DNA of 64,000 bases, taken from the NCBI GenBank assembly GCA_016930595.1, contig JAFGGJ010000074.1, forward strand, positions 1 through 64,000, given 5' to 3'. The translations under genes were made by a program, and so were the position numbers. This DNA comes from Planctomycetota bacterium. GTDB lineage: Bacteria; Planctomycetota; SZUA-567; JAFGGJ01. Positions 253 through 58,631 of the stretch are shown here, in pieces (the first letter of the stretch is position 1; each line of letters begins with the position of its first letter). A model generated the notes under the pieces. The model worked only from the letters and a program-made list of their open reading frames with translations, was not told the origin of the DNA and did no database searches.

Positions 253-1041
253 GGATGCTGCGGGAGGAGAGGTTTCCTGGGCGGCGATTTCGCGGGCGAG
301 TTCCCTGTATGCTTCGGCACCGTGGCAGGCGGGGTCGAAATGGATGACGGGGACGCCTGCGCCCTGGGATTCGGCAATCTTGATATTCTGGCGGACAACG
401 GTCTTGAGGAGATGCGGAGCGAGGCGGCCGTCGGACTGGAGGCGTTCCTGGACTTCACGCGAGATGTTGGTGCGGGTGTCGAACATGGTGATGAGGACGC
501 CGGCAAGGATGATGTCGGGGTTTATCTGCTCCTTGACGAGGGAGTAGACTTCGAGAAGCTTGTCGATGCCGTCGAGAGCGAAAGGGTGGGCCTGCATGGG
601 GACGATCATTTCGGTGGAAGCGGTCATGGCGTTGATGGTGAGAAGACTGAGGGAGGGAAGGCAGTCGATGAGGACGTAATCGTACTTCTGCGGGACGTCG
701 CCGAGAGCCCGCGAGAGGCGGGTTTCTCGACCGTACATGGAGACCATTTCGATTTCGGCGCCGGAGAGGTCGATGTGACTGGGAAGGAGGTCGAGGCGCG
801 GCCAGCGTGTGAGGCGGATGTAGGGGGCGACGACGCCGTGCTGGTTGACGAGGACGTCGTAAATGGAACCCTTGGAGGATATGTCGGACATGCCGAGGCC
901 GTGGGTGAGGTTGGCCTGGGGGTCGAGGTCGATGAGGAGGACTTTGCGGCCGAGCTCGGCGAGTGCTGCGCCGAGGTTGAGAGCGGTGGTGGTCTTGCCG
1001 ACTCCGCCCTTCTGATTGAGTATCGAAATGATGCGCGCCAT
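250..1041 (-). CDS. parA: ParA/Soj-family ATPase
   Basis: A 263-aa cytosolic P-loop ATPase of the ParA/MinD superfamily. The deviant Walker A motif KGGVGKTT is at residues 11-18, followed by the LIDLDPQAN switch segment and a Walker B-like VLIDCLP. Family members form ATP-dependent dimers that segregate DNA or position cell structures. The ATG shares its A with the TGA of the upstream tldE (TGATG), so translation is probably coupled. There is no parB alongside, which is odd for a chromosomal segregation locus; the partner may be beyond the left edge, or this may position something else. Length is typical for chromosomal Soj. The family call is firm; the specific role is not. Confidence 0.9.
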   Translation of the reverse strand: MARIISILNQKGGVGKTTTALNLGAALAELGRKVLLIDLDPQANLTHGLGMSDISSKGSIYDVLVNQHGVVAPYIRLTRWPRLDLLPSHIDLSGAEIEMVSMYGRETRLSRALGDVPQKYDYVLIDCLPSLSLLTINAMTASTEMIVPMQAHPFALDGIDKLLEVYSLVKEQINPDIILAGVLITMFDTRTNISREVQERLQSDGRLAPHLLKTVVRQNIKIAESQGAGVPVIHFDPACHGAEAYRELAREIAAQETSPPAAS

Positions 1042-2402
1042 CAGCTGCCGCCTGCGACTGTTAGGCCGTCAACGAGAACGCTGGGGGCGCCGAAACAGGT
1101 GGTGCCGCCCGGAGTGTCGAATTTGAAGTCGTCGGCGACGGAGGAAACGGAGTCGAGGAGGGAGAGGAAATTGCCGCTGACGGTGACGCCTTCGACGGGA
1201 CGCGAGCGTTTGCCGTTCTCGACAAGGAAGCCTTTGGCGCCGAGGGAGAAGTCGCCGTTGAGACCGTTGGCGCCGGCGTGGAGTCCTTCGAGCTGGACGA
1301 CCATTAGAGCCCTGGAGCAGGAAGAGAGGAAAGAATCGAGGGGTACGGCGGAGTCGCCTTCGACAAAACAATTGGACGGCGCGATGCCGAGAGGGCTCTT
1401 ATAGCCGCGGAAGGCGTGCCCGGTGCCTGGGACGCCGGCGCGCCTGGCGGTAGCGGAGTTGTGCATGAAGCCGTTGAAAAGGCCACCGGAAACCAACTCG
1501 AAGCGGGAGGTGGGATGGCCTTCAAAATCGAACGGGCGGCTGACGAAACCGCCGTCGAGGGTGGCGTCGTCGATGATGCGGATGCCGGGGCGGGCAATGC
1601 GTTCGCCGGAACGACCGGCAAGGACGGTACGGCCTTCTTCTGCGGCCTTGCCGCTGAACATGCCGATGAAGGTACTGAGCAGATCGCAGAAAGAGAGGTT
1701 TTCGAATACGACGGGGATGGAGCCGGTGTCGATGGGAGAGGCGCCGAGGAGGTCGAGAGCGCGCCGGGCGGATTCGGAGCCGACGGGTTTCTGTTTGAGC
1801 TCGGGGAAGGAGCGGCTGACTTCGACCTTGTACCCGGTCTGGCGGCTGTCGCCTTCGACGGCGAGGGGGACACAGTAGATGCCGGCGTAGTTGGCGCGGC
1901 GGGAGCGTTCGAGGCCGGCGGAGTTTGCGAGGAAGAGTTCGAAATCGCCTTCGTAGTAGCCGACGTGGGGGACGTTGACGATGCGGGGATCGGTGGAGCG
2001 TGCGTCTTCTTCGACTTTGCGTGCGAGATCGACCTTGTCGGAGAGCGGGACAGAAGCGAGTTCTTCGGTGAAGCTGGGAGCGATGGATGGGCCGTCGGGG
2101 AAGTCGGAGATGGCTGCGCCCTTGTCTTCGCGCCCGAGGGCGGCGTTCTGGACGGCCCATGAGGCGGCGGAGCGGATGCCGTCTTCGTCGAGGCGTTCGG
2201 TGTGGGCATAGCCTTCGCGGCCGTCGACGATAACGCGGAAGCCGAGACCGGAAGACTGTGAGTGTTCGAGGCTGTCCACCTGGCCTTCAAAGACCCTGAT
2301 GGAGACGGAAGTACCCTGGGAGAGGAGGACTTCGGCGGAAGAGGAGCCGGCATCGAGAGCAAGATCGACGGCGGCGGAAACGACGGAAGCTGGGGCGTCC
2401 AT
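1041..2402 (-). CDS. pmbA: TldE/PmbA metalloprotease subunit
   Basis: A 453-aa PmbA/TldE-family protein, the partner of TldD in a heteromeric zinc protease that degrades unfolded or modified peptides in the cytosol. It lacks the HExxxH motif found in TldD, as expected for the TldE subunit, and keeps the family's glycine-rich C-terminal half with conserved segments such as GANGLNGDFSLGAKG. Start and stop abut the neighbours exactly: its ATG overlaps the TGA of tldD and its own TGA overlaps the ATG of parA, giving a tightly coupled tldD-tldE-parA unit. The pairing with tldD supports the assignment. Confidence 0.93.
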   Translation of the reverse strand: MDAPASVVSAAVDLALDAGSSSAEVLLSQGTSVSIRVFEGQVDSLEHSQSSGLGFRVIVDGREGYAHTERLDEDGIRSAASWAVQNAALGREDKGAAISDFPDGPSIAPSFTEELASVPLSDKVDLARKVEEDARSTDPRIVNVPHVGYYEGDFELFLANSAGLERSRRANYAGIYCVPLAVEGDSRQTGYKVEVSRSFPELKQKPVGSESARRALDLLGASPIDTGSIPVVFENLSFCDLLSTFIGMFSGKAAEEGRTVLAGRSGERIARPGIRIIDDATLDGGFVSRPFDFEGHPTSRFELVSGGLFNGFMHNSATARRAGVPGTGHAFRGYKSPLGIAPSNCFVEGDSAVPLDSFLSSCSRALMVVQLEGLHAGANGLNGDFSLGAKGFLVENGKRSRPVEGVTVSGNFLSLLDSVSSVADDFKFDTPGGTTCFGAPSVLVDGLTVAGGS

Positions 2403-3790
2403 CAGGATCTTCCTCCTACGGTAAGATGGTCGACAAGGATGGTGGGCTGGCCAACGGTGGTGGGGACGGCACCGGAGACGGAGCCGCAGATGCCTTCGGA
2501 ATGTTCGAGGTCGGAACCGACGCGTGCGATGCGCAGGAGGACTTCCGGGCCGGAGCCGATCAGGGTGGCGCCGCGCACGGGTTCGGCGATCCTGCCGGAC
2601 TTGATGAGGAAGCCTTCGGCCACGGAAAAGTTGAATCGGCCGGTGGAAGGCTGGACGGAGCCGCCGCCCATGCGGAGGGCGTAAAGGCCTGAATCGACGG
2701 AGGAGATAAGGTCGTCGAGGGAGGCGTCGCCGCGGTCGATGTAGGTGTTGCGCATCCTGCTGGTGGGAGGATACCTGTAGGAGGAGCGGCGGCCGCTGCC
2801 GGACATGGGGTGGCCTGTCTTCATGCGGCCGAGACGGTCAACCATGAAAGCCTTGAGGACGCCGTTTTCGATGAGGACGGTGCGCTGGGTGGGGGAGCCT
2901 TCGTCATCAATGGCAGTGGAGCCCCAGAAGCCGGGCATGGTGCCATCATCGATCGCGGTAAGGCAGGAACGGCCGACTTCCAGGCCGAGCTTGTCGGTGA
3001 AAACCGAGGCCTTTTTGGCGACGGAAGTGGTTTCGAGAGCATGTCCGCAGGCTTCGTGAAAAATGACTCCGCCGAAGCCGTTTCCCACGACGACGGGCAT
3101 GTCGCCCGGAGGGGCGTAGCCCGCGTTGACGGAGCGGACGGCACTTTCCGCTGCGTCGGCGGCGATTGAGGGGATATCGAGGGAGCGGATGAATTCGAAG
3201 CCAGCATAAGCGCCTGGCCCGCGGTAGGCGTGTTCCTTTTCGGCGCCCTTCTGGGCAATGGCCGTGAGGCTGAGCCTGACGTAGGAACGGTGGTCGTCGG
3301 CCCAGACACCGTCGCTGTTGGCAATGGCAACGTCTTTAACAGTCTCCGAGATGCCGGCATCGACCTGGCTTACCTGTGAGGAGAAGGAGCGTGCGGAGGC
3401 ATCGGCGGCGGCAAGGAGATCGACACGTTCGCCGGAGGGGACATCATCGGGGGAGACAAGAAAGACGTGGGGGTTGTCAACGTCGACGGGGATGAGGGTG
3501 ACATGGGGTGCGTCGGAGGAAGCGGAGCCCGCCAGTGCAACGGCATCTGCGGCGCGCATGAGGGCATCGTCGGAGGTATCGGAGGTGTAGGCGTAGACCT
3601 GGTTGGTACCGAAGACGGCGCGCACGCCGGCGCCGCGGTCGATACCGGACATGGCGCGTTCAACAGAACGGTCAATGAAGCGGATGGAGCGGGAGCGGGA
3701 TTCTTCGGCGTAGATTTCGGCATAGTCTGCAGAGGACTGGAGGAGGCGGGAAACGACGGCGGAAGCGGAAGCTCTGGATAGTATGGACAC
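2402..3790 (-). CDS. tldD: TldD metalloprotease subunit
   Basis: A 462-aa catalytic subunit of the TldD/TldE protease. The zinc motif H-E-A-C-G-H is at residues 245-250. I start it at a GTG (3788-3790) with AAGGA eight bases upstream, which gives the usual family length. The open frame continues upstream to 4165, but those residues are low-complexity Ser/Pro/Arg sequence lying over fmdB in another frame, and a good promoter sits between fmdB and this GTG. In other bacteria TldD/E matures microcins and other modified peptides; nothing like such a precursor is visible here, so a general peptide-quality-control role next to the chaperone block is more likely. Confidence 0.93.
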   Translation of the reverse strand: MSILSRASASAVVSRLLQSSADYAEIYAEESRSRSIRFIDRSVERAMSGIDRGAGVRAVFGTNQVYAYTSDTSDDALMRAADAVALAGSASSDAPHVTLIPVDVDNPHVFLVSPDDVPSGERVDLLAAADASARSFSSQVSQVDAGISETVKDVAIANSDGVWADDHRSYVRLSLTAIAQKGAEKEHAYRGPGAYAGFEFIRSLDIPSIAADAAESAVRSVNAGYAPPGDMPVVVGNGFGGVIFHEACGHALETTSVAKKASVFTDKLGLEVGRSCLTAIDDGTMPGFWGSTAIDDEGSPTQRTVLIENGVLKAFMVDRLGRMKTGHPMSGSGRRSSYRYPPTSRMRNTYIDRGDASLDDLISSVDSGLYALRMGGGSVQPSTGRFNFSVAEGFLIKSGRIAEPVRGATLIGSGPEVLLRIARVGSDLEHSEGICGSVSGAVPTTVGQPTILVDHLTVGGRS

Positions 3791-3828
3791 GACGAGGGTC
3801 CTTTCCGTCCGGCGAAGGGTTTGAGTAT

Positions 3829-3856
3829 AATATAAGGGTGGGGGCGGACGGGTCAA
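3829..3856 (-). promoter_or_regulatory. Sigma-70-type promoter for tldD-tldE-parA
   Basis: Read on the minus strand: TTGACC, a 16-bp spacer, then TATATT, with an alternative TATTAT two bases downstream. It lies just after the fmdB stop and about 40 bp before the tldD GTG, so the protease/parA unit can be expressed independently of the chaperone operon upstream. Confidence 0.7.
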
Positions 3857-3884
3857 GGGGTGAGAATGGATTAGCGCAAGGAAA

Positions 3885-4175
3885 TTACGAATCAGTGGAA
3901 GGGGCGCCGGAGGAAGAGTCCTTGTTAGAGACGGGGCAATTGGAGCTCTTGTCGCACTTGTCGCACGCGGGTGCCGGGTCGGGCCTGGAGGATTTCTTGT
4001 AGTCCGTCTGGTAGAAGCCGGAGCCCTTGAAGAGGACTGCGCCGCCGGTACCCACGAGGCGGCGAAGCTTGAGCCTGCCGCAGGAGGGGCACTTGCGGAT
4101 CCGCGGGTCCTTGATGGACTGGAACTTTTCGAAGGAATGACCGCAGGCGGAACATTCGTAATCATAGGTGGGCAT
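3885..4175 (-). CDS. FmdB-family zinc ribbon protein
   Basis: A 96-aa protein with the N-terminal zinc ribbon of the FmdB/CxxC_CxxC family: MPTYDYECSACG, with Cys pairs at residues 8/11 and 29/32, then the usual G-S-G-F-Y-Q-T-D-Y segment. The C-terminal tail has extra cysteines (CDKC and a further C), perhaps a second metal site. FmdB proteins are called regulators from early work in Methylophilus, but their biochemistry is unsettled. It starts two bases after the grpE stop and is the last gene of the chaperone operon. Confidence 0.88.
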   Translation of the reverse strand: MPTYDYECSACGHSFEKFQSIKDPRIRKCPSCGRLKLRRLVGTGGAVLFKGSGFYQTDYKKSSRPDPAPACDKCDKSSNCPVSNKDSSSGAPSTDS

Positions 4176-4177
4176 GG

Positions 4178-4870
4178 CTAGGCCTCATTTCCAGGAGCAT
4201 CGACGGAAGCGGTACCGGACGGAGGTGAATCGGCGGACGGGGGCTGAGGGGGCGGAGGGTTTGCGACAACAACCTGCGCAGCGCGTATGACAAGACCTGG
4301 GACGGCGAAACCGGGCTTGAGGACTTCATGCACGAGGGGGGAATCGACGGAAGGATCTTCAAGACACATCACGGCTTCGTGACGGGCTGGATCGAACGGC
4401 TCGCCCGGGACGCCGGTGATTTCGAACTGCCACTTGAGGAGGAGGGAATCGAAATGGCCGCGGAGTATGGAGTAGGCGTCGCGCAGAGCGTCGAAGTCGG
4501 CATGATTGCGGAGGCCCTTATCGATATGGTGGAAGGCGTCGACGAGGTCGGCGACGTCGGCGATCATGAGCTTCTGTGCGGCGAGGGTGGATTTGAGGAT
4601 TTCCTGGTCCATGCGCCTTCGGTAGTTGATGAAGCTGGCGCGCTCGCGTTTGAGGTCGTTTTCGAGGGAATCGATTTTATCCTGCAGAGCAGCGACTTCT
4701 CCGGCGGTTTCGGCGACGGGTTCCCGGGCCTGGGAATCCTGCGGCATGGCGGAATCGGCAGCGCCTGCGTCCGCACGGGAGGAGGAACGCTTGTCGGTGA
4801 TCCGGTGGGAGGGGGGATCGGTCTCGCCGGGATCGCCGTTATCCGGATGCTGTATGTCAACTCGTACCAT
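4178..4870 (-). CDS. grpE: GrpE nucleotide exchange factor
   Basis: A 230-aa co-chaperone that releases ADP from DnaK. The first 55 residues or so are a disordered charged tail. A long helical region follows (DKIDSLENDLKRERASFINY and onward), then the beta domain with the conserved FDPARHEAV and KPGFAVPG-L-IRAAQVVVA segments. A Pro/Ser-rich tail ends the protein. It lies 19 bp downstream of dnaJ and 2 bp upstream of fmdB in the chaperone operon. Its partner dnaK is not in this operon but 8 kb away, under a similar promoter. Confidence 0.93.
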   Translation of the reverse strand: MVRVDIQHPDNGDPGETDPPSHRITDKRSSSRADAGAADSAMPQDSQAREPVAETAGEVAALQDKIDSLENDLKRERASFINYRRRMDQEILKSTLAAQKLMIADVADLVDAFHHIDKGLRNHADFDALRDAYSILRGHFDSLLLKWQFEITGVPGEPFDPARHEAVMCLEDPSVDSPLVHEVLKPGFAVPGLVIRAAQVVVANPPPPQPPSADSPPSGTASVDAPGNEA

Positions 4871-4889: not shown

Positions 4890-6032
4890 TTACCTGAAAA
4901 AGTCCTTGATGCGATCGAAAATACCGCCTTCCTTGGTTGAACGGGGCTTGTTGACAGCCGGCCGTATCTGCTCAAATTCCCTGAGGATTTCCTTTTCGCG
5001 CTGGGAAATGTTTTTGGGGACTTCGACGATGGTCCTTACGTAGAGGTCGCCTTTGCCCTTGGCGTTGAGCCGGGGCATGCCCTGGTCGCGCAGGCGGAAA
5101 AGCTGTGAGTTCTGAGTGCCGGGAGGAATCTTGAGCCTTGCCTTGCCGTAGGGGGTGGGGACTTCAATATCGGCGCCGAGAACGGCCTGGGGGAATGAGA
5201 CGGGGAGCTCAAGGACGAGGTTATCGCCCTGTCTCTGGAAGACGTCATGGGGCTTGACGTGGATATAGACGAAGAGGTCGCCGCGCGGGCCGCCTTCCTG
5301 CGGGCTGGGCTCGCCTTCGCCCGCGATGCGGAGGCGGCTGTTGTCTTCGAGGCCCGGAGGGATGGAGACTTCGATCTTGGCGGGCTTGGTCACGTGGCCT
5401 TCGCCATGGCAGGTGGGGCAGGGTTTTTCGATAATGGTACCGGCGCCGTGGCAGTGGGGGCACGAAGTGGACATGGTGAAAAAGCCCTGTCGCTGCGTGA
5501 CGTGGCCGCTGCCGTGGCAGTAGGGACACTGCTGCATGGCGACACCCCGTTCAGCGCCGGTGCCGTGGCAGTCGGGGCAGCGCTCGTGGCGTTTAAGCTC
5601 GATGGTCTTCCTGGTGCCGGCAACGGAGGCTTCGAAGGGGATGGTGATGTCGACGCGGAGATTGGCGCCGGACCTTGGGCCCTGGTACATGCCGCCGAAG
5701 CCGGTGCCGAAAAGGTCGCCGAAGACGGAGCCTCCGCCGAAGACGTCACCGAAAGCGCTGAGGATATCTTCGATGGAGCCGAAGTGAGGTTCCTGGGCGC
5801 GACCCTTGAGGCCGGCGTGACCGAACTGGTCGTAGATGCGGCGTTTATCGGGATTGGAGAGGACTTCGTAGGCTTCGGCGAGTTCCTTGAACTTGTCTTC
5901 AGCGGACTTGTCGCCGGGGTTCTTGTCAGGGTGGTACTTCATGGCGAGCTTGCGGTAAGCGCGCTTGAGCTCGTCGGGGGAGGCAGTCCGCTCGACGCCG
6001 AGGATTTCGTAGTAGTCTCTGTCAGTGGGCAT
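4890..6032 (-). CDS. dnaJ: DnaJ (Hsp40) co-chaperone
   Basis: A 380-aa type I DnaJ. The J domain (residues 1-70) has the HPD motif in [11 protein letters not shown] Gly/Phe-rich linker follows. The zinc-finger region then has four CxxCxGxG repeats ([32 protein letters not shown]), and the C-terminal substrate-binding domain is complete. It delivers substrates to DnaK and stimulates its ATPase. A hairpin between groEL1 and this gene may lower its expression relative to the chaperonins. Length and domain order are canonical. Confidence 0.97.
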
Positions 6033-6110: not shown

Positions 6111-7760
<1,650 letters not shown>

Positions 7761-7774
7761 CTAATGCAAGGGTA

Positions 7775-8086
7775 CTAATTCTCGACGCGGGCGAGTATAT
7801 CGCTTTCCCGCATGATAAGGAATTCCTCGTCGGCAATCTTGACGTCGGAACCGGAGTACTTGCCGAAGAGGACTTCATCGCCCTTCTTGACGGAGAGGGG
7901 CGCGCGTTCGCCGGAATCGAGGAGTTTGCCCGGACCGACGGAGACGACTTCGCCGCGCTGCGGCTTTTCCTTGGCGGTGTCGGGGAGGACAATGCCGCCC
8001 GGAGTGGTGTCTTCGACGTCAAGGCGCCTGATGAGGACGCGGTCTTCAAGCGGTTCGATAACGAACTTCTTTTCCTTTTTGGCCAT
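7775..8086 (-). CDS. groES: GroES co-chaperonin
   Basis: A 103-aa 10-kDa co-chaperonin that caps GroEL. It has the conserved [11 protein letters not shown] start, the mobile loop ([16 protein letters not shown]) and the GEVVSVGPG core. It is the only groES in the window and lies between two groEL genes, 32-48 bp from each, so it probably serves both. Start and length fit the family; the short N-terminal MAKKEKK is a few residues longer than usual. Confidence 0.97.
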
Positions 8087-8134: not shown

Positions 8135-9739
8135 TCAATAGTCCGGCCCTGGGGCGGGCGGGGCTTTTTCCGGTATGCGTGCGATCAGGCATTGGGAAGT
8201 GAGAAGGACGCCTGCGATACTGGCGCCGTTGACGAGGGCATTCTTGGCGACCTTGGCGGGATCGATGACGCCCATGGCGAGCATGTCGCCGAATTCGCCG
8301 GTAAGTGCGTTGAACCCGAAGGGGCCGTCCGCCGAGCGGACTTTCTTGACGACAACCCCAGCATCGTAGTCGCCATTGGCGGCGATGAAGCGGAGGGGCT
8401 CGGAGAGAGCGTCCCTGACGACCTCCACACCGACGGATTCATCGCCGGAGGATTGGACGGCGTCAAGAGCGCCGGCGGCGCGGATGAGAGCAACGCCGCC
8501 GCCCGGGACCATACCTTCCTCGATGGCGGCCCTTGTGGCGTGGAGGGAATCTTCGACGCGCGCCTTTCGTTCCTTCATTTCGACCTCGGTGGCGGCGCCG
8601 ACGTATATTTCAGCAACACCGCCGGCGAGCTTGGCGAGGCGTTCCTGGAGTTTTTCGCGATCGTAATCGCTGGTGGTGGTTTCTATTTCGCGTCGGATGA
8701 GATCGATGCGGGCCTGGATTTCGGAGGACTTGCCGGCACCTTCGATGATGGTGGTGGTATCGGCGTCGATACGGACGCGCTTGGCGGTACCGAGGTCGGA
8801 AACCTTGATATCCTTGAGTTCCATGCCGAGGTCTTCGAAGATAGGTTTGCCGCCGGTGAGGACTGCGATGTCCTGGAGCATGGCCTTGCGGCGCTCACCG
8901 AAGCCCGGGGCCTTGACGGCGGCGCACTGAAGTATGCCGCGCAGCTTATTGACGACGAGCGTGGCGAGGGCGTCGCCGTCGATGTCTTCGGCGATGAGGA
9001 GGAGGGGCTTGCCGGCCTTGGAGATATTTTCGAGGAGGGGGACAAGGTCCCTGGCGTTGGAGATTTTCTTTTCGTGAATAAGGATAAGAGGCTGCTGGAA
9101 GTCAACGAGCATGTCATCCTGGTCGGTGACGAAGTGCGGGGAAAGATAGCCGCGGTCGAACTGCATACCTTCGACGACTTCGACGGTGGTTTCAACGCTT
9201 CTGCCTTCTTCGACGGTTACGACACCGTCCTTGCCGACCTTTTCGAGGGAATCGGCGATAATCGTGCCGATTTCGGTGTCGTTGTTGGCGGCGATGGTGG
9301 CGACTTGGGAAATGCGTTCCTTGTCCTTGACGGGGACTGACATGCGGTCAATTTCATCGACGACTGCCTTGACGGCGGTGTCGATGCCGCGCTTGACGAA
9401 CATGGGGTTGGCGCCGGCCGAAACAGCCTTGAGGCCGCCCAGGAAGACGGCTTCGGCAAGGACGGTGGCGGTGGTGGTGCCGTCGCCGGCTACGTCGGAG
9501 GTCTTGTCGGCGGCTTCTTTGAGAAGCTTGGCGGCCATGTTTTCAAACTCGTCATGGAGTTCGATTTCTTCGGCCACGGTGACACCGTCCTTGGTGATGG
9601 TGGGAGCGCCCCAGGATTTCTCGATTATGGCGTTCTTGCCTTTGGGTCCGAGGGTGGCTTTGACTGCGGAAGCGGTCTTGACAACACCTTCTCTGAGCGA
9701 TGCGAGGGCATCGTCTTCAAAAACGAGTTTCTTTGCCAT
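8135..9739 (-). CDS. groEL: GroEL chaperonin, copy 2
   Basis: A 534-aa chaperonin and first gene of the operon. I start at [11 protein letters not shown], seven bases after a strong AGGAGG; an in-frame upstream start at 9775 would place that ribosome site inside the gene. It has [22 protein letters not shown] and [10 protein letters not shown]. Like copy 1 it lacks a GGM tail and ends P-P-A-P-G-P-D-Y. It is preceded by a sigma-54-type element, a sigma-70-type promoter further up, and a palindromic motif upstream of both. Being promoter-proximal and closer to consensus, it is probably the main chaperonin, but expression data would decide that. Confidence 0.96.
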
Positions 9740-9794
9740 CCGGCTGCCTCCTTCCAGAAGGTCAGAATGGTACAAAGTGGATGTGGTGTAGAGT

Positions 9795-9808
9795 GCAAAC
9801 CTTGTGCC
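9795..9808 (-). promoter_or_regulatory. Sigma-54-type (-24/-12) promoter of the chaperone operon
   Basis: Read on the minus strand: AGGCACAAGGTTTGCACT, with GG and GC separated by exactly 10 bases as required by RpoN (consensus TGGCAC-N5-TTGCA). The GC is 55 bp upstream of the groEL2 ATG, so a transcript would start near 9784. The sequence AGGCAC-N3-GTTTGCACT recurs exactly upstream of the small membrane gene at 12548-12775. No gene for RpoN or an enhancer-binding protein is in the window, so this is motif evidence only. Confidence 0.68.
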
Positions 9809-9825
9809 TTGGCGAGGAATTTATC

Positions 9826-9905: not shown

Positions 9906-9918
9906 TGTCAGTATGACA
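9906..9918. promoter_or_regulatory. Candidate activator site upstream of groEL2
   Basis: A palindrome TGTCA-GTA-TGACA centred about 104 bp upstream of the -24 element, the usual distance for sigma-54 activator sites. A further AATGACA lies at 9955-9961, 43 bp (about four helical turns) away. A similar 13-mer, 10 of 13 bases identical, occurs at a matching distance upstream of dnaK. The motif is short and could be chance. Confidence 0.4.
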
Positions 9919-12547: not shown

Positions 12548-12775
12548 CTAGATCAATCCCCATTCGACGGACAACGTCACGCAAATAACGATGAGGCCGG
12601 TAACAAGGTAGCCGCCGATGCAAAGAACGACCCCGGCCGAAAGAGATACCAGGGTCGCCAGGACGAGCAGAAGCCACGCCCCCCACAGAGCGGCCCTGCT
12701 CAGAAACCTGCAAAAGAAAACAAAAGGCGCCAGCAGCAGCTTGAGCAACGTTCCCGATGTGCTGCCGAGGTGCAT
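12548..12775 (-). CDS. Small two-TM membrane protein, likely stress-induced
   Basis: A 75-aa protein, mostly hydrophobic, with probable membrane segments at about residues 30-50 and 50-70 and a basic patch (CRFLSRA) before the first. I recognise no family. The gene looks real: GGAG lies seven bases before the ATG, a strong promoter region precedes it, and it fits exactly between the dnaK terminator and the convergent gene ending at 12531. It shares its AGGCAC-N3-GTTTGCACT element with groEL2, so it may be co-regulated with chaperones, in the way the small Psp membrane proteins are under sigma-54 in enterobacteria. That comparison is regulatory only; there is no sequence similarity I can see. 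Confidence 0.7.
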   Translation of the reverse strand: MHLGSTSGTLLKLLLAPFVFFCRFLSRAALWGAWLLLVLATLVSLSAGVVLCIGGYLVTGLIVICVTLSVEWGLI

Positions 12776-12795: not shown

Positions 12796-12834
12796 ATTAT
12801 ACAACACGAATGCACAAAGTGCAAACTGCGTGCC
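12796..12834 (-). promoter_or_regulatory. Overlapping sigma-54-type and sigma-70-type promoters
   Basis: On the minus strand the sigma-54-type element is AGGCACGCAGTTTGCACT, with GG-N10-GC spacing (12821-12834). Its TTGCAC also serves as a -35 with 17 bp to a perfect TATAAT (12796-12801). So either sigma factor could act here, and the two forms would be mutually exclusive. The GC is 46 bp from the start codon of the small membrane gene. Confidence 0.65.
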
Positions 12835-12866
12835 TGCGGGAGAAGAAAAAAACTGACAAAAGAACA

Positions 12867-12914: not shown

Positions 12915-14852
<1,938 letters not shown>

Positions 14853-14894
14853 TGTTGTTCCTCCAATAGTCAGAATGTGCCACCAGAAGTACAA

Positions 14895-14908
14895 GCAAAA
14901 TCGGTGCC
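14895..14908 (-). promoter_or_regulatory. Sigma-54-type (-24/-12) promoter of dnaK
   Basis: On the minus strand: CCGGCACCGATTTTGCTT, with GG and GC exactly 10 bases apart (consensus TGGCAC-N5-TTGCW). The GC is 43 bp before the dnaK ATG. A TATAAT is also present upstream at 14930-14935 but with a poor -35 (GTCCTG at 17 bp), so a weak housekeeping promoter is possible too. Confidence 0.65.
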
Positions 14909-15018
14909 GGAAGGGCGCCTGCAGGAAAGATTATATTGCGCGGCCATAACAACAGGACAGACAAGGTGTTACATGATGCGCTGAAGACAGTGGAAGACCC
15001 GAAGCTCCCGCCCGGACA

Positions 15019-15063
15019 TATCATTGTGACATGGCAAAAGCCCAAGAAGCTGAATTTGTGACA
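15019..15063. promoter_or_regulatory. Candidate tandem activator sites upstream of dnaK
   Basis: TTGTGACA occurs twice, at 15024-15031 and 15056-15063, 32 bp apart, close to three helical turns, which would place two dimers on the same DNA face. The first is within TATCATTGTGACA, which matches TGTCAGTATGACA upstream of groEL2 at 10 of 13 positions. It is centred about 117 bp upstream of the dnaK -24 element. This is the layout of an enhancer-binding-protein site, but it is inferred from two promoters only. Confidence 0.4.
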
Positions 15064-15095: not shown

Positions 15096-16418
15096 CTACT
15101 TGAAGACAGGGAGAATGGATTCGGCCAGGGTCGAGCCCCATTCACTGATCCTGGCGAGAAGCCCTGCCGCCGCGCCGCGGGCGATTATCATATAACCGGC
15201 AACGGCGGCGGAAACAAGACCTGAGCCCAGGAGCGCGCCGGTAACGAGATGCCGGAATGAGCCGTCGACCCGGCCGGCCGAATAACGGCGGACTTTCTTG
15301 TGCGCCAGGTAACGTGCGCGGCGGCCGGCGAGGATATCTTCGATATCGCGCAGCAGTCTTGTTGCGCTCTGGTACCTGTCCCTGGGTTCCTTGGAAAGGA
15401 GTATTTCCACAAGGCGTTCAACCGTGGTCGGGATGGAAGGCATGAGCCTGCGTATCGGGGTATGGCGCGCGCTTACGTGCTTGCAGGCGATTTCGGCCGG
15501 AGTAGTGCCGTCAAACGGGGGATGCCCGCAGAGGAGGAAATAGAGGGTGGCTCCCAGAGAATAAAGGTCGGCCCTGTGATCAACCTTGCCGTGGCCCGTG
15601 GCCTGTTCCGGGCTTATGAAATGCGGGGTGCCCATGGCAACGCCCGTATTGGTGAGACGGCTGTCTTCGGAAAGATCCTTGATGAGGCCGAAATCCGCAA
15701 GCCGTACGAGGCCGCTCTTGTCGATTATGATGTTTGCCGGTTTGACATCGCGGTGCACCATGCCTCTGCGATGCGCGCAGGAAAGCGCCCTGGTGACTTC
15801 TGCGATGATCTTGAGGGCATCGTAAACATCGAAAGGGCCGTTTTCGCGAACGAGCTGATCGGTATCCTTGCCCTCGACGTAGTCCATGACGAAATAGTGA
15901 AAGCCGTTGTCTTCACCCACGTCAAGACCGCGGACGATATTGGGATGTCGCATGCTGAGAGAGGCTTCGGCTTCCTTGAAAAAACGCCTGAGGAAGTTGC
16001 GGTTACGTGCGAGACTTTTGCGGAGAACTTTTACGGCAACGCGCTCACCGGTGCGCTTGTCGAAGGCGGCATAAACGCCGCCCATGCCGCCTTCGCCAAC
16101 ACGGGCGATCAGTTCATAGTGGCCGAGAATAGTAGGCTTGTAAGTTGAGGCGACTTCACGCCGCAGGCGATCGGCATAAGCGCGGTCGATGAAACCGTCG
16201 AGGACCATCATGGAAGCAAGGTCGCGGGAAGCCTGGTAGCGCCCGTTGGGGCACATGGCTTCCAGGTAATAATTGAGCTTGGTGTGCGGGATAAGACGGC
16301 GGCGGGCGACGATGGCGGCGAGGATTTTTTCAGCGGGCGGGAGCTTGCGGTTGAGATGGGAGGGCATCTTCCATTCAGGCCCTTGACCAACTCGCCAGTG
16401 CCGCGCGGATCGACTCAT
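15096..16418 (-). CDS. Membrane-anchored Ser/Thr protein kinase
   Basis: A 440-aa Hanks-type (eukaryotic-like) kinase. Residues 1-95 form a basic helical N-terminal region of unknown role. The kinase domain (about 98-365) has the glycine loop GEGGMGGVY, VAVKVL with the ATP-binding Lys, the catalytic loop HRDVKPAN, the DFG motif in LADFGLIKD and GTPHFISPEQ in the activation segment. A single membrane helix follows near residues 391-413, with a short tail that is probably periplasmic and carries no PASTA or other sensor domain. It is monocistronic and lies upstream of dnaK on the same strand; whether it acts in stress signalling is unknown. A start at MPSHLNRK (16367) is possible, but the first ATG has a GGGGG seven bases upstream. 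Confidence 0.93.
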   Translation of the reverse strand: MSRSARHWRVGQGPEWKMPSHLNRKLPPAEKILAAIVARRRLIPHTKLNYYLEAMCPNGRYQASRDLASMMVLDGFIDRAYADRLRREVASTYKPTILGHYELIARVGEGGMGGVYAAFDKRTGERVAVKVLRKSLARNRNFLRRFFKEAEASLSMRHPNIVRGLDVGEDNGFHYFVMDYVEGKDTDQLVRENGPFDVYDALKIIAEVTRALSCAHRRGMVHRDVKPANIIIDKSGLVRLADFGLIKDLSEDSRLTNTGVAMGTPHFISPEQATGHGKVDHRADLYSLGATLYFLLCGHPPFDGTTPAEIACKHVSARHTPIRRLMPSIPTTVERLVEILLSKEPRDRYQSATRLLRDIEDILAGRRARYLAHKKVRRYSAGRVDGSFRHLVTGALLGSGLVSAAVAGYMIIARGAAAGLLARISEWGSTLAESILPVFK

Positions 16419-58172: not shown

Positions 58173-58266
58173 CTGCAGATCCTTTCACCACGCACACTGG
58201 ACAATCTACAATCACCGGCGGCGTTTGTCCAACAGAAAACTTTTGCCTCCGCACGATCATGGGGCT

Positions 58267-58631
58267 GGTAGCGGACCTGTAAGCCGGCTTCTGTACCGGA
58301 CGGTGGCCCCACTACCGGCCGGCGGCGGTTATGCATCCGGGACGCAGGTTGCCCTGCGCCTCATGCGCCCAACCCGGGGATTCTGGCGACGCGGGCAGCG
58401 TCATCTCCCCCTATGCGGGCTTGCTCCGGGCGGGGTTTGCCGTGCCTCGCCTGTCGCCAGGCGAGCGGTGGGCTCTTACTCCACCTTTTCACCCTTGCCG
58501 GCCGAAGCCGGCGGTTTCTTTTCTGTGGCACTTTCCCTGGGGTCGCCCCCGGTCGCCGTTAACGACCGCCCTGCCCTGCGGAGGCCGGACTTTCCTCGAC
58601 GTTTTACGCCGCAACTGCCCGGTCCGCTACC
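58267..58631 (-). ncRNA. rnpB: RNase P RNA, type A
   Basis: The catalytic RNA of RNase P, which matures tRNA 5' ends. On the minus strand it begins GGTAGCGGACC and ends GGTCCGCTACC, pairing as P1. Diagnostic segments in order are GAGGAAAGTCCGG, AGGGTGAAAAGGTG, GGCACGGCAAACCCCG then CCCGGAGCAAG, and ACAGAAGCCGGCTTACA (P4 3' side). About 365 nt, normal for type A. A TTGACG (58656-58661) and TATGAT (58638-58643) precede it, but the spacer is only 12 bp, so the promoter is uncertain. Boundaries are set by P1 and may be off by a few bases. The flanks 58173-58266 and 58632-58692 hold nothing else I can see. Confidence 0.97.

Follow-up and report, generated by a model that had tools for sequence, protein, structure and literature searches.

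Chaperone genes of the window

Which sigma factor drives the main chaperone genes of planctomycetes, and which regulator acts with it? The question is raised by a locus of a Planctomycetota bacterium (assembly GCA_016930595.1), a metagenome-assembled genome of 3.4 Mb that is 82 percent complete and whose closest named groEL relatives belong mostly to the Planctomycetota. The stretch analyzed here, called the window, comprises the first 64,000 nucleotides of contig JAFGGJ010000074.1. A preliminary description of it had proposed that a sigma-54-type promoter drives the chaperone operon. The genes concerned are the following:

8135..9739, minus strand: groEL2, first gene of the operon (Pfam Cpn60_TCP1, 1e-73)
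7775..8086, minus strand: groES (Pfam Cpn10, 9e-35)
6111..7742, minus strand: groEL1 (Pfam Cpn60_TCP1, 3e-72)
4890..6032, minus strand: dnaJ (Pfam DnaJ, DnaJ_C and DnaJ_CXXCXGXG)
4178..4870, minus strand: grpE (Pfam GrpE, 1e-22)
2402-4165 and 1041-2402, minus strand: two TldD/PmbA metallopeptidase genes (Pfam PmbA_TldD domains), on the same strand with a short gap or overlap
12915..14852, minus strand: dnaK (645-aa DnaK-type translation; orthologues in 55 of 60 relatives)

From their common strand and the short gaps between them, groEL2, groES, groEL1, dnaJ and grpE would form a single transcript, and both TldD/PmbA genes are probably co-transcribed behind grpE. A ParA-like gene, also on the minus strand, comes after the TldD/PmbA genes. 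The sole Rfam match in the window is RNase P RNA class A (58264-58630, minus strand).

Sigma-54-type elements upstream of the chaperone genes

Three elements of the sigma-54 type were located in the window, the third of them, absent from the preliminary description, ahead of a short ORF:

9794..9809, minus strand: sigma-54 -24/-12 element before groEL2, AGGCACAAGGTTTGCA, with AGGCAC and TTGCA boxes (16.7 bits in the weight matrix; orthologous sites in relatives)
14894..14909, minus strand: sigma-54-type element before dnaK, CGGCACCGATTTTGCT, with CGGCAC and TTGCT boxes (kept before dnaK in relatives)
12820..12835, minus strand: third sigma-54-type element, AGGCACGCAGTTTGCA, with AGGCAC and TTGCA boxes (behind the dnaK terminator)
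12548..12775, minus strand: 75-aa hydrophobic ORF downstream of the third element (no Pfam match)

The GG-N10-GC arrangement with GGCAC and TTGCA boxes that had been described before groEL2 reads in the bases as stated, on the minus strand from 9809 to 9794: the GG occupies 9808-9807 and is followed by ten bases and by the GC at 9796-9795. The element has one mismatch to TGGCAC-N5-TTGCW, at -26, a position where the T is replaced by A or C in all three elements of the window. It ends 54 bp before the groEL2 ATG (9739), and the transcript start is predicted near 9783. That the same element type precedes dnaK was also correctly noted, the site reading from 14909 to 14894, 41 bp before the dnaK ATG (14852). 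Outside the window, the third chaperonin unit of the genome (groES-groEL3, contig C86) shows a near-match, TGGCACGGTTTTTGTT, which is a GG-N10-GT variant located 80 bp before groES; all three chaperone units of the genome, this one, the groEL2 operon and dnaK, carry a site.

Two further observations concern these upstream regions. The groEL2 and dnaK 5' leaders share ATTCTGAC just before the ribosome-binding site (9760-9775 and 14860-14875, minus strand), and ATTCTG-like strings are also found in the leaders of some relatives. In addition, several planctomycete chaperonin promoters (eight loci) combine a strong TGGCAC -24 box with a -12 box that reads TTGT rather than TTGC, which may point to a lineage-specific form of the sigma-54 consensus.

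Chance matches and a dispersed repeat

The number of matches in the genome was rejected as evidence. The pattern GGCAC-N5-TTGCW matches 37 times genome-wide, against 20 for a reversed control pattern, and roughly 19 of these matches are copies of a single 15-mer at contig ends, which represents a dispersed repeat; the remaining unique sites occur at background frequency. One could argue from these counts that the GG-N10-GC matches arise by chance, or reflect some other conserved DNA feature without a promoter role, as unique matches are no commoner than those of the control pattern and the dispersed repeat accidentally carries a perfect one. We consider this very improbable, because what sets the window sites apart from chance is their placement and their conservation across the phylum, not their number. 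Around 0.0005 matches are expected on the coding strand of any given 200-bp upstream window, and three unique sites lie here within 5.1 kb, on one strand, all of them intergenic and before ORFs. Furthermore, the conservation is specific in strand and position across many families and absent in other phyla (see below), and it is coupled to an upstream repeat. Another unique match precedes a glutamine-synthetase-like ORF, identified from its N-terminal sequence only, which is what a functional sigma-54 system would lead one to expect.

The dispersed repeat itself is near-identical over several hundred bases, is found at many contig ends, among them positions 1-153 of the window and ten other loci, where it interrupts the assembly. 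On the right it ends in exactly TGGCACGGAATTTGCT, which matches the sigma-54 consensus perfectly, with unrelated unique DNA beyond it, and in some copies a gene preceded by a ribosome-binding site starts about 100 bp downstream of this end. Its left end, beginning with TTGCACAATGTGCGGACGAAATTGCATCATGCAG, is common to other contig ends (four loci), including the far end of the window's own contig. Whether the perfect match at 138-153 could drive the ParA-like gene was considered, and the idea was discarded, since the match points away from this minus-strand gene and corresponds to the conserved end of the repeat.

Conservation of the site in Planctomycetota

Upstream regions were scored at a threshold of 11.5 bits with a sigma-54 matrix whose weights are our own approximation of the published consensus, and both the reverse strand and dinucleotide shuffles served as controls. 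Sites reaching this threshold were detected in 31 of 47 groEL-operon upstream regions of relatives (none on the reverse strand, 0.7 in shuffles) and in 14 of 29 dnaK upstream regions (none and 0.2, respectively), as well as in 11 of 28 further named Planctomycetota groEL loci (none in reverse). By contrast, none of 52 groEL loci from other phyla reached this score. Families differ in the positions and spacers of their sites but retain the GG and GC boxes, and about a third of the groEL-operon regions and half of the dnaK regions had no site above the threshold. Taken with the placement of the sites, this conservation marks the window element as a real site of the sigma-54 type.

Sigma-54 machinery and other control systems

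A search of the assembly for rpoN and for enhancer-binding proteins had been proposed, with absence of rpoN to count against the promoter. RpoN is encoded in the genome, on contig C44 (PF04552, 184.8 bits), together with nine strong sigma-54 activators (above 210 bits to PF00158).

The systems that commonly govern chaperones were also searched for. HrcA (PF01628) was found in none of 60 genomes, this one being 82 percent complete, and in 7 of 14 controls; for RpoH (TIGR02392, RpoH_proteo) none of the 60 genomes, and 2 of the 14 control genomes, scored above the cut-off. The best match to the CIRCE element (TTAGCACTC-N9-GAGTGCTAA) before groEL2 has mismatches at 8 of 18 positions. In other bacteria the arrangement met most often is classical heat-shock control through HrcA/CIRCE or sigma-32. 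Applied to the window, with the sigma-54 match taken as incidental, we hold this reading, in view of these searches, to be the least probable of all. An RNA thermometer was likewise set aside, with no Rfam match near the operon.

An inverted repeat in the position of an enhancer

An inverted repeat recurs in the DNA upstream of the sigma-54-type elements of chaperone genes, and in the window it lies before both groEL2 and dnaK:

9906..9918, minus strand: candidate enhancer for groEL2, TGTCATACTGACA, with TGTCA and TGACA arms (96 bp upstream of the -24 element)
15019..15031, minus strand: candidate enhancer for dnaK, TGTCACAATGATA, with TGTCA and TGATA arms, one mismatch (about 110 bp upstream of the -24 element)

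The repeat, TGYCA-N3-TGRCA, was first picked by eye from sigma-54-positive promoters, and the same promoters were those then counted: it is exact in 23 of the 59 sigma-54-positive regions (0.15 in shuffles) and present within one mismatch in 45 of them (1.6 expected). Among 105 sigma-54-negative regions it was never found exact, and 3 had it with up to one mismatch (2.25 expected). Its usual position is 60-140 bp upstream of the GG. The repeat is placed like an enhancer and may be regarded as a putative one; the groEL2 copy lies in the range of about 80-150 bp upstream that is typical of activator-binding sites.

When 23 genomes were scanned with CTGYCAN3TGRCAG, about half of the roughly 37 sites fell at chaperone loci. 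Targets beyond those used to define the motif also combine the repeat with a sigma-54 site, namely groES-groEL3 units, an hsp20 pair and small receiver proteins ahead of groES-groEL; the hsp20 pair, in one relative, has a perfect sigma-54 site. The repeat is absent at several relatives' groEL genes that do have a sigma-54 site, at the third chaperonin unit of this genome (groES-groEL3) and at the third element of the window (12820-12835). The genome has 8 exact sites, and the groEL2 copy (9906-9918) is among them. Other exact copies (contigs C9, C37, C48, C57 and C86) have no adjoining high-scoring sigma-54 site, and a wider regulon is not claimed from them. In several planctomycete families (four loci), the gene before the third groES-groEL unit encodes a small stand-alone receiver domain and carries the same sigma-54 site and repeat; a role as a feedback component is possible.

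A candidate activator linked to dnaK

In eight relatives, the gene of an NtrC-type regulator is found 160-430 bp upstream of dnaK, and in another two it is within about 3 kb; the direct adjacency extends over at least eight planctomycete families. In several relatives the repeat is located between the regulator gene and dnaK. In the five cases checked, the regulator is preceded by the gene of a partner histidine kinase, a short protein with HisKA and HATPase domains and no recognised sensor domain. The genome studied here encodes a homologue of the regulator, L033 (contig C54, 3928-5322), also with a partner histidine kinase, at a place not adjacent to dnaK. Its domains are a receiver, a Sigma54_activat domain with the GAFTGA loop and a Fis HTH. 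In the phylogenetic tree, the dnaK-linked regulators that were included cluster with one protein of genome G030 (support 99/96), and L033 joins this group (94/93). The recognition helices are similar, with a slight difference (GIGERTLYRKI in the dnaK-linked form, GIGLKTLYRKL in L033). Linkage and phylogeny make an L033-type NtrC regulator the leading candidate activator, and we put the odds that it binds the chaperone repeat at about even.

Autoregulation of L033-type regulators was considered and dropped, as 30 orthologue loci had no exact repeat except beside the dnaK of one relative (G058); only in G050 does one lie upstream, 95 bp before such a regulator gene.

A working sigma-54 promoter could also depend on another of the nine activators. 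Two examples are L035, an orphan receiver-AAA-Fis protein, and L036, which has an FHA-GAF-AAA-Fis architecture and might be under the control of a Ser/Thr kinase. In favour of this alternative, a gene for such a kinase (15096-16418) immediately precedes dnaK in the window, nine strong activators are available, and the assignment of the repeat to any one protein is putative. We rate it as somewhat less probable than the involvement of L033, since only the L033-type regulator repeatedly adjoins dnaK across families and the tree places none of this genome's other activators with the dnaK-linked regulators.

Proposed circuit

The repeat also bears on a further alternative, in which a housekeeping or ECF sigma promoter drives the operon and the sigma-54 element is secondary or conditional, for instance responding to nitrogen limitation. 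Chaperonins need basal expression, tandem promoters exist in many bacteria, and the A+T-rich region upstream of the element contains a TTGTAT...TATAAA-like sequence, so an additional basal promoter of the groEL2 operon is possible. However, no sigma-70-like promoter was detected at the scan threshold upstream of groEL2 and dnaK, and the concentration of the conserved repeat at chaperone genes points to a chaperone-specific signal rather than to nitrogen. As the main source of the transcript, such a promoter seems to us unlikely.

The best explanation, to which we assign a probability of about 0.8, is that a sigma-54 promoter transcribes groEL2-groES-groEL1-dnaJ-grpE, with sister promoters on dnaK and groES-groEL3 and with a dedicated activator; both the activity of the promoter and its inducing signal are what we infer. 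The initial proposal of a sigma-54-type promoter driving the operon finds support in the presence of RpoN and activators, in the failure to find HrcA, CIRCE, RpoH or a sigma-70-like promoter, and in the conservation of the sites and of the repeat. According to this sigma-54 model, the element would be the -24/-12 core of the operon promoter, at which sigma-54 RNA polymerase would wait. The activator, most likely an NtrC-type response regulator (receiver, AAA+ and Fis HTH) acting with a short histidine kinase, would bind TGYCA-N3-TGRCA about 100 bp upstream, loop onto the polymerase and, at times of demand for chaperones, open it through ATP hydrolysis. The circuit would take the place that is held elsewhere by HrcA/CIRCE or sigma-32.

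A broader version is more tentative, and we give it slightly less than even odds: the core heat-shock regulon of Planctomycetota (groEL operon, dnaK, groES-groEL and hsp20) would be run by a dedicated two-component system, in which a soluble histidine kinase senses folding stress and an NtrC-type regulator acts through the TGYCAN3TGRCA enhancer and sigma-54, replacing HrcA and sigma-32.

Discussion

Direct sigma-54 control of a main chaperone operon had been called unusual in the preliminary description. Compared with the textbook cases from proteobacteria and Gram-positive bacteria it is so, but not in view of reports on Flavobacterium psychrophilum (PMC9723704) and on Planctomycetota (PMC12316311). 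In F. psychrophilum, sigma-54 (SM4) promoters with mapped transcription start sites are described on groESL, dnaK and grpE-dnaJ (PMC9723704), promoters of the same -24/-12 type as those considered here. That bacterium belongs to another phylum, and its promoters are backed by mapped transcript starts, whereas those of the window are predicted from sequence. The available portion of that report names three candidates for the activator and describes no enhancer motif or two-component regulator such as those proposed here.

In Planctomycetota and Bacteroidota, Carrera-Reyna et al. (2025; PMC12316311) found predicted sigma-54 promoters enriched on the GroEL, GroES, GrpE, DnaJ, DnaK and IbpA groups, with the strongest enrichment in Planctomycetia and a smaller one in Phycisphaerae. 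The window is a further case of this predicted planctomycete regulon. Their study scores the core promoter by gene group, and its text makes no mention of HrcA, CIRCE, UAS or an inverted repeat; the present analysis adds the enhancer repeat, the dnaK-linked regulator and the lack of HrcA and RpoH. The open-access literature searched yielded no description of either the enhancer motif or the dnaK-linked regulator. While sigma-54 chaperone promoters had already been predicted in Planctomycetota, the enhancer and the candidate two-component activator appear to be new.

NifA is the activator of groESL3 in Bradyrhizobium japonicum. This chaperonin operon, like the one studied here, has a sigma-54 promoter and is RpoN-dependent (PMC4842269), but it is one specialised copy among several and is tied to nitrogen fixation, whereas the window carries the main chaperone set. 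The candidate activator resembles NtrC and ZraR in having a receiver, a sigma-54 AAA+ domain, a Fis HTH and a partner kinase, and differs from them in its putative TGYCAN3TGRCA target, its linkage to dnaK and a kinase with no recognised sensor domain.

In Rhodopirellula baltica, heat induces groEL, dnaJ, grpE, dnaK and hsp20, and rpoN mRNA is unchanged (PMC2754498). An unchanged rpoN mRNA is expected if control is exerted via an activator, but it lends no support to that idea. The same paper states that rpoH is present in R. baltica, which differs from our cut-off-based result on the relatives searched.

Chaperones are heat-induced in R. baltica, but in the genomes searched here HrcA was missing and no RpoH could be recognised. 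A circuit made up of a sigma-54 promoter, a dedicated enhancer and a candidate kinase-regulator pair beside dnaK would be concrete and open to testing in culturable, genetically tractable planctomycetes. If this is true, essential chaperones would be under activation-only control through an ATP-driven activator, unlike the textbook schemes based on repressors or alternative sigma factors.
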